From a bacterium SCSIO 12827 (lineage in GTDB: Bacteria > Pseudomonadota > Alphaproteobacteria > Rhodospirillales > Casp-alpha2): a stretch of DNA of 64,000 bases. The translations under genes were made by a program, and so were the position numbers. Shown here piece by piece: positions 20,673 through 22,335 of this stretch (positions within the stretch are counted from its first letter, which is position 1; each line of letters starts with the position of its first letter). The stretch lies in the NCBI GenBank assembly GCA_024397995.1, contig CP073746.1, forward strand, positions 2,787,501 through 2,851,500, written 5' to 3'. The notes under the pieces are model-generated. The model was not told the DNA's origin and ran no database searches. It saw nothing but the letters and a program-made list of their open reading frames with translations.

Positions 20673-20712
20673 CCGCCGCCTGCGTACACCCAATTCACCG
20701 CCCAACGCAAAA

Positions 20713-20740
20713 CCCCGGCCCGCGCGAACGCGGACCGGGG
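20713..20740. terminator. hairpin downstream of the lipoprotein gene
   Basis: CCCCGG-C-CCGCG, loop CGAA, CGCGG-A-CCGGGG: an 11-bp stem with one mismatch, 40 bases after the lipoprotein stop. It lacks a real T tract, so it may be a weak terminator or an RNA 3' end protector. Confidence 0.45.
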
Positions 20741-20802
20741 CCGTGGGTTTGCCAATCCTTGGGGTCGGATCGGGCATAATGCCCAAATGAATTCGAACCC
20801 GC

Positions 20803-20907
20803 CTAGCGGGGATTATTGGTGTGCTTAACGCCGTAGGCCGCCGCCGCCACGAATGCGAGAGCAGCGGCGATGCAAACACCAAGAAAAATCATGCTTCCTG
20901 TCGTCAT
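20803..20907 (-). CDS. 34-residue membrane microprotein
   Basis: A short frame from ATG 20907 to TAG 20803. After a short polar start (MTTGS) it has one hydrophobic helix, MIFLGVCIAAALAFVAAAAY, and a short hydrophilic tail GVKHTNNPR. The ribosome binding site is weak. What supports it as a gene is its promoter: a perfect FNR-type box centred about 42 bases before the predicted start of transcription. It is likely an oxygen-regulated inner-membrane microprotein. It does not match CydX or CcoQ by eye, and its function is unknown. Confidence 0.6.
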   Translation of the reverse strand: MTTGSMIFLGVCIAAALAFVAAAAYGVKHTNNPR

Positions 20908-20938
20908 CTTTCGAAATTCCCGTGGTTTCAATGACGCA

Positions 20939-20981
20939 ACTTTAGGGTGCCGGAACAGGCTTCGGCATTGATCTAGATCAA
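20939..20981 (-). promoter_or_regulatory. FNR/Anr-type box and class II promoter
   Basis: TTGATCTAGATCAA (20968-20981) is an exact FNR/FixK consensus palindrome (TTGAT-N4-ATCAA). On the minus strand a -10-like TAAAGT lies at 20944-20939, placing a start near 20932. The box centre is then about 42 bases upstream, the normal position for FNR-activated class II promoters. It faces the 34-aa gene; the plus-strand gene at 21136 is farther (155 bases) but cannot be excluded as a second target. Confidence 0.75.
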
Positions 20982-21135: not shown

Positions 21136-22335
21136 ATGCGCAATGCCGTCATCGGCATCGTCGTGGGATTGGTTGTCGGCGTTGTCCTGGGGGTTTCCAT
21201 CATCGCCCCCCGCCTGAACGCATCGCTGCCCGAAACCGCCGCCCAGGCCGTGGCCGAGATCACCCCCGAGCCCGCTGCGCCGAAAGAACCCCCCCCAGCA
21301 TCGACCGCAGAGATATCTGCCCTGCCCGCCGCTGCGGAAAGCCTGCTGGCCCCCGCCATCACCCCCGACCCCATCGTGCGCTGGCGCATGGAAAGCGCCT
21401 TTGCCAGCGCCCTGCCGCAGTTGGGTGCCCAGGCCAAACGAATCGAAACGGAAATCTGGCGCGTGTCCGCCGGCGGGATGGAGATCGCTTTCAACGAACC
21501 GGGAACCCTGATTCAAGGCAAGGACATGGTCAGCGCGGTCAAGGACGGCACCGTCGACGCAGCCTTCGTCGCCCCCGAAAGCTGGCCGGCGACCACCCCC
21601 GCCTTGCAACTGTTCGGCGCCGTGCCGTTCGGCCCACGGGCCGAGGAATACCTGGCCTGGCTCTATTTCGGCGGCGGTGAAAAGCTGTTGAACGGCCTGG
21701 CAGAAGGACTGGGCGTGCGGATCGTGGTCTGCGGGCTGGTGTCGCCCGAAGGGGCCGGTTGGTACCGACGGCCATTGACCACGGTCGAAGACCTGAAAGG
21801 CCTGCGGGTGCGCATGACCGGTCTTGGCGCGCGCGTGATGAACCGCCTGGGTGCGAAGACTGTGGCCCTGAACGAAGGGGAAATCTTCCACGCCCTGGAA
21901 ACCGGGGCCATCGACGCCGCCGAATATTCCATGCCCGCCATCGACGTGCAGCTCGGCCTGCACCGCATGGCGCGGAATTACTATTTCCCCGGCTGGCATC
22001 AGCCGGCGACGCTGCTGGCGCTGGTCATCAACAACGACCGCTGGACCGACCTCAAACCGGTGCAGCGCTCACAACTGCGCGCCGTGTGCGGCGACAATGT
22101 GCGTCATGGCCTGGCCGAGGGCGAGGCCTCACAGTACCGGGCCCTTCTGAACCTGACCAAGGAAGGCGTGACCGTGCGCCGCTGGCCGCGGGAAATTCTC
22201 GGTAAACTGTCCAAGGCCTGGGACGAGGTCGCGCGCGACACGGCGAAGCAGGACAAGGATTTCGCCAAGGTGTGGAAATCGCTCGATCGGTTTCGCAAGG
22301 ATTACGCCGTCTGGCGTGACGCGGGCGGCAGATAA
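21136..22335 (+). CDS. membrane-anchored DctP-like TRAP solute-binding protein (orphan)
   Basis: A 399-residue protein. The first 30 residues form a hydrophobic segment (IGIVVGLVVGVVLGVSIIA) without a clear cleavage site, followed by a Pro/Ala/Glu-rich linker to about residue 80. The rest is a DctP-family (TRAP family 7-like) binding domain: VSAVKDGTVDAAFVAPESW, EDLKGLRVRMTGLGARVMNRLGA and GEIFHALETGAIDAAEYS. DctP proteins usually feed DctQ/DctM permeases, but none adjoins this gene. It may serve a distant permease or act as a tethered sensor. It converges with the DUF2336 gene. Confidence 0.85.
   Translation: MRNAVIGIVVGLVVGVVLGVSIIAPRLNASLPETAAQAVAEITPEPAAPKEPPPASTAEISALPAAAESLLAPAITPDPIVRWRMESAFASALPQLGAQAKRIETEIWRVSAGGMEIAFNEPGTLIQGKDMVSAVKDGTVDAAFVAPESWPATTPALQLFGAVPFGPRAEEYLAWLYFGGGEKLLNGLAEGLGVRIVVCGLVSPEGAGWYRRPLTTVEDLKGLRVRMTGLGARVMNRLGAKTVALNEGEIFHALETGAIDAAEYSMPAIDVQLGLHRMARNYYFPGWHQPATLLALVINNDRWTDLKPVQRSQLRAVCGDNVRHGLAEGEASQYRALLNLTKEGVTVRRWPREILGKLSKAWDEVARDTAKQDKDFAKVWKSLDRFRKDYAVWRDAGGR

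Follow-up and report, generated by a model that had tools for sequence, protein, structure and literature searches.

A putative class-wide family of single-helix microproteins behind a conserved FNR/FixK-type promoter in Alphaproteobacteria

Oxygen-control regulons are read off annotated genes, and frames of only a few dozen codons are often omitted from annotation. The 64,000-nt stretch of DNA that we analyzed (the window; contig CP073746.1 of the alphaproteobacterium SCSIO 12827, positions 2,787,501 to 2,851,500) raises the question of whether an exact FNR/FixK box within it controls a gene of 34 codons and, if so, what the product does. An earlier note on this DNA had described the box, a -10-like TAAAGT that places the box near -42, and a 34-codon frame beginning approximately 25 bases past the predicted start and encoding a single hydrophobic helix; it had also suggested that the product is induced by oxygen limitation and is possibly an accessory of a terminal oxidase or another membrane complex. 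Our comparison across genomes supported the class II FNR promoter and the conserved one-helix microprotein, and it spoke against an obligate terminal-oxidase accessory.

The box, the hexamer, and the frame are all present as described (Table 1). The box was the sole match in the window to TTGATNNNNATCAA with one mismatch tolerated, for which 0.98 matches are expected by chance, and the 14-mer TTGATCTAGATCAA is single-copy in the 3.93-Mb genome. Counted from the -10-like hexamer, transcription is predicted to start near 20932, approximately 25 nt 5' of the ATG at 20907 on the minus strand, which is located 60 nt past the box. The frame translates as MTTGSMIFLGVCIAAALAFVAAAAYGVKHTNNPR and ends in TAG at 20805-20803. 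An alternative reading of 42 codons opens at TTG 20931; however, the genus genomes align from the ATG.

Table 1. Positions of the features of the microprotein locus in the window
Feature	Position	Strand	Basis
FNR/FixK box TTGATCTAGATCAA	20968..20981	palindrome	exact; box upstream of frame in 8/8 genus genomes; 11/14 columns invariant
-10-like hexamer TAAAGT	20939..20944	minus	sequence; 23 nt past box
34-codon gene, putative single-helix membrane microprotein (stop TAG included)	20803..20907	minus	genus conservation, purifying selection, class-wide profile matches
Genus-specific 3' element GGGC-N5-GCCC-GATCC-RACCCCAA-GGATTGGC	20751..20784	minus	30/33 columns invariant, 8/8 genus genomes
GC-rich hairpin then TTTT, probable terminator of microprotein transcript	20709..20742	minus	pairing kept in genus

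Alignment within the genus showed a frame of 34 codons in all eight genomes, each with a box upstream, and 58-67 nt between the end of the box and the ATG. The numbers of invariant columns at the first, second, and third codon positions were 19, 24, and 5 of 34, respectively. The pooled pN/pS of 0.29, calculated for seven of the eight sequences (G007, whose protein is identical to that of G002, was left out), indicates purifying selection, and pairwise dN/dS values were 0.10-0.46 wherever dS was finite. The spacer between the box and the ATG was only 51% identical, showing that the frame does not lie in a generally conserved stretch. We consider it nearly certain that an FNR/FixK-controlled, translated microprotein exists. 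The opposite reading, in which the frame is chance sequence in a non-coding spacer and the box acts solely on the divergent gene at 21136, draws on the location of the box in a divergent intergenic region and on a divergent gene of 397-442 aa (TRAP-type by eye) at all seven other genus loci. It is hardly credible, however, given a frame that is kept in every genus genome with a codon-position bias, and given that the box-frame spacing persists in lineages with different flanking genes, which argues against transcription running only toward 21136.

The host genome appears to use the FNR/FixK operator, since it contains 24 sites of the form TTGAYNNNNRTCAA compared with 5 for a reversed-pattern control. 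It also yielded 11 Crp-type HTH matches, 10 of which were over the cut-off, and one of the Crp-type proteins (L193) carries the motif C-x2-C-x7-C near its N-terminus, in keeping with the presence of an FNR-type regulator; a cysteine cluster is described for the oxygen-sensing FnrN proteins (PMC4999443). Other boxes in the genome adjoin ccoN and NirK-like, cytochrome c peroxidase-like, and Crp/FNR genes, all named by eye from their first residues. The boxes at L180, L181, L184, L185, and L191 precede thiolase-, cytochrome c peroxidase-, NirK-, bc1 Rieske-, and hemerythrin-like genes, names that, bc1 Rieske excepted, were likewise assigned by eye.

A profile built from the genus sequences and one distant match recovered more short, full-length frames among 317 genomes of the order, and the iterated profile reached the class Alphaproteobacteria (385 genomes), in which 31 genomes, including that of the window, carry strong members (E <= 1.1e-5). 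Members are 29-67 residues long, with the exception of one that reads on to 116 (G327), and follow the pattern M-x-x-G-E-x-x-[YF]-L-x2-V-I-x-A-F-x2-F-x3-L-A-[WYF], with a basic tail in most. Among 54 aligned members, Y/F8 was conserved in 53, L9 in 49, F19 in 50, W/Y/F25 in 47, and E5 in 31. A scan of named genomes detected seven family loci, including L089 in Denitrobaculum tricleocarpae. Because short hydrophobic frames make low-information profiles, the distant members may include unrelated helices.

In the order-level search, full-length short frames were taken, and partial or long loci (L038, L049, L051, and L053-L056), which had no box upstream, were dropped. The alignment A6 comprised 21 of 28 loci; five of the seven omitted (L061, L062, L071, L073, L075, L082, and L084) were box-less, and four genomes of omitted loci (G327, G393, G660, and G414) re-entered through the class profile search and are counted among the 59 loci discussed below. 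The class profile matched 45 genomes up to E 0.006, of which 38 were fetched; the remainder were the window's own genome (G000), three whose genus was already represented (G539, G458, and G639), and three with long open frames (G379, G378, and G401). G071 was left uncounted owing to a stop inside its frame; this relative (L031) belongs to family f2, and the box is absent from the three f2 members read. In a sample of 299 genomes of the phylum, the five weak matches outside the class that were read (L206, L211, L215, L219, and L222) were long frames or partial, and all were box-less; three tblastn queries against plasmids gave no match up to E 1. From the same 299-genome search, 11 loci within the class were read, eight with a box (seven of eight in family f199, plus G926) and three without (G772, G776, and G891). 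One f199 genome (G872) carries three paralogues (L233, L234, and L235), each with its own box. The members in family f60 (L134, L146, and L147) are longer, at 61-62 residues, and include the basic stretch ERRKL; each is located 3' of a gene of 669-672 residues, which for L134 encodes an FMN oxidoreductase.

We scanned the region 5' of the ATG at 59 loci outside the window's genome by one fixed box rule. An FNR/FixK box was found within 160 nt of the ATG in 50 of the 59 loci, and the box started 67-81 nt 5' of the ATG in 44 of them, this zone having been chosen after the data were seen. Excluding the seven other genus genomes left 43 of 52 loci with a box within 160 nt and 37 with a box in the zone, and the box rule matched 52 times in the 530,471 bases that make up the rest of these loci, a background of 0.0157 boxes for a 160-nt stretch and 0.0015 for a 15-nt zone. 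At the 13 loci whose upstream regions were read only after the profile had been fixed, 11 boxes were within 160 nt and eight were in the zone. Three loci with E values of 0.04-0.25 (G302, G188, and G308) were retained partly for their box and therefore cannot be counted as independent among the 50; no box was present within 160 nt at nine of the 59 loci (G626, G440, G393, G556, G660, G455, G070, G037, and G065). Since the profile sees the protein alone, this conservation of the box also supports the family. When the 50 loci were aligned on their boxes, A was present in 66% at position +37 from the box start and T in 74% at +41, while T reached only 24% at +36. We interpret +37 and +41 as positions 2 and 6 of a putative -10 hexamer at +36 to +41, which would center the box at -41.5, as in class II promoters; the hexamer in the window is one base further from its box than in this set. 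G occupied +15 in 82% of the aligned loci, extending the box as in the operator consensus TTGANCNNGATCAANG published for the FnrN/FixK regulons of Alphaproteobacteria (PMC4999443, PMC4263372, PMC4634722). The check proposed in the earlier note, conservation of box and frame together, thus came out in its favor in 8/8 genus genomes and in most relatives across the class, and from these alignments a class-wide family of one-helix microproteins behind the same promoter layout looks real.

Our predictions for the window microprotein give a single hydrophobic helix of membrane length: the best 19-residue hydropathy is 2.58, and a single-sequence structure model forms one helix from residue 4 to 31 (mean pLDDT 83.6). 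In the 54 members, the C-terminal parts contain 99 K/R and 44 D/E, whereas the first seven residues contain 2 K/R and 53 D/E. The hydropathy, the predicted helix, and this charge bias suggest that the microprotein is a single-pass helix with its N-terminus outside and its C-terminus inside. Conservation was periodic in columns 5-25 (moment at 100 degrees, p 0.021), weak evidence that fits the packing of one helical face on a partner.

Could this partner be a terminal oxidase? An obligate small subunit resembling CcoM, CcoQ, or CydX would share the size, the one helix, and the FNR/FixK-type control, and ccoN (TIGR00780) was indeed commoner in the strong members (19 of 31) than in the other class genomes (148 of 354; Fisher p 0.039). 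The family also gave weak matches to Pfam FixQ (PF05545; one of 37 members, E 0.028) and to the NCBIfam 'cytochrome oxidase small assembly protein' (one of 37, E 0.19), and at one locus (L159 in G038) a 311-residue cytochrome c gene that also matches the cbb3 subunit III family PF13442 (E 4e-7) is located 133 nt 3' of the microprotein on the same strand. However, ccoN is absent from 12 of the 31 strong members. A search of 80 genomes for cydA showed no enrichment: 19 of 31 strong members had a match (three of them partial), as did 14 of 20 genomes lacking a strong member (one partial), and the other 12 strong members had none. Eight of the 12 strong members without ccoN also have no cydA: G393, G649, G345, G527, G627, and G441, which are 95-100% complete, and G626 and G327, at 86% and 77%, respectively. 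Together with a CcoM chain that the family profiles did not match and the lack of a cco or cyd operon among 20 neighbours scanned at 16 loci, these absences make an obligate cbb3 or bd subunit unlikely, and this part of the earlier suggestion was not borne out.

The neighbourhood pointed to no single candidate partner either. Neighbouring genes vary between lineages, so the microprotein gene is apparently free-standing. A Pfam scan assigned unrelated functions to the 20 neighbours (two had no family), including SDR, HAD hydrolase, hexapeptide transferase, peroxiredoxin, CoA-transferase, rhodanese, HSP20, cytochrome c, and Crp/FNR proteins, and the neighbour clusters common to at least four genomes mostly represented one lineage or large common superfamilies. 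In genus g201 (L128 and L139), an HSP20 gene is located 3' of the microprotein on the same strand, with gaps of 113 and 174 nt, and in G600 (L149) the gene for a 250-residue Crp/FNR-type regulator is located 116 nt 5' of the microprotein on the same strand. The bc1 Rieske protein was found in all 31 strong members; only members were searched, and this result therefore singles out no bc1 partner. A degenerate FNR-type box precedes the Rieske gene of the window's genome.

Between the microprotein stop and the hairpin, the genus genomes share the 3' element, whose C-rich loop reads RACCCCAA. Its pairwise identity, with gaps counted as differences, was 0.957; the hairpin region reached 0.802, the frame 0.746, and the sequence beyond the hairpin 0.32. 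Each of the eight genus genomes has one exact copy, located behind the frame, and a search of 34 genomes with up to two mismatches found extra matches only in G004 and G020 (one each), in coding-looking frames. Rfam returned nothing up to E 1. In the putative terminator, 13 pairs are unbroken in all eight genomes, two of them with changes on both sides, and a T-rich run follows in all eight, although a simple terminator scan did not flag the hairpin. This pattern raises the possibility that the element is a regulator derived from the 3' UTR, although a role in RNA stability or in termination would be a simpler explanation. A dual-function transcript in this genus, the 3' part of which would base-pair as a regulator through the C-rich loop, would account for an element that is better conserved than the frame and occurs in one exact copy per genome, and a hairpin exposing that loop is compatible with all eight sequences. 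We nonetheless regard it as rather unlikely: the exact motif is absent behind all 52 other family loci, the pairs of the element never vary and covariation therefore gives its fold no support, the full transcript shows a merely moderate folding advantage over shuffled sequences (z -1.99), and selection on the frame acts at the level of the protein.

The explanation that we favor, with about even confidence, is that the microprotein is a low-oxygen accessory or modulator helix on a widely shared inner-membrane complex. Falling oxygen would lead the FNR-type regulator of the genome to bind the box at about -42 and to turn on a short, probably monocistronic mRNA that would begin near 20932 and end near 20709. 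The product would insert as one helix, with its acidic N-terminus outside and its basic C-terminus inside, and its conserved face (E5, Y/F8, L9, F19, and W/Y/F25) would pack on a complex that is not obligately a cbb3 or bd oxidase. Alternatively, the product could act as a stress peptide, reducing membrane energisation or growth at low oxygen, for which TisB is a precedent. The small size, the hydrophobicity, and the separate regulated promoter would all suit such a peptide. Yet the class-wide retention of particular residues, such as Y/F8, L9, and F19, suits a specific partner better, and this alternative appears quite unlikely, even with metabolic silencing reported for the small membrane protein YohP (PMC12719787). 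A further reading, which we consider very doubtful, makes the microprotein a class-wide, as yet unnamed low-oxygen subunit of a complex universal in Alphaproteobacteria, for instance cytochrome bc1, and gives its mRNA in this genus a second role as a 3' regulatory RNA. The conserved residues of the family provide a short list that can be tested in any laboratory strain carrying a member.

Searches of Pfam and NCBIfam with 37 members gave best E values of 0.006 and 0.003, respectively, from one or two members each and to unrelated families. The profiles A4, A6, and A8, searched against PDB up to E 10, matched one transporter chain and nothing else, with the CcoM chain (5djq_N) within the set searched. 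The literature that we searched, mostly without subscription papers, does not describe the family. Small single-helix proteins of low-oxygen respiration are a known kind; for this family, none of the libraries searched gave a convincing match. CydX and AppX of the bd oxidases are about 30-40 residues long with one helix, a size and build that the microprotein shares; unlike them, it has no such match in Pfam or NCBIfam, no cyd gene among its 20 scanned neighbours, and strong members in genomes without cydA. CcoM of the Pseudomonas stutzeri cbb3 oxidase (5djq chain N, 36 residues) is of the same size and a single helix, and it has been tied to low-oxygen respiration (PMC10433244, PMC8267372); unlike CcoM, the microprotein also occurs without ccoN, and its profiles do not match this chain. 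CcoQ/FixQ is likewise a small membrane protein of low-oxygen respiration, to which one member shows the weak match described above, but CcoQ is commonly encoded inside the cco operon (PMC8267372), whereas the microprotein gene stands alone and is also found in genomes without ccoN.

The closest likeness in control is to the FnrN/FixK regulons, which have the same operator and regulators as the microprotein promoter (PMC4999443, PMC4263372, PMC4634722), although the accessible portions of these papers name no such microprotein family. The same sources report that 13 FnrL sites in R. sphaeroides have no annotated gene downstream, two of them preceding proposed sRNAs, and that several FnrL targets in R. 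capsulatus are 'hypothetical proteins'. If our reading is correct, the microprotein would be a hidden but common member of the FNR/FixK regulon across many alphaproteobacterial families, and it could explain some binding sites that seemingly have no gene.
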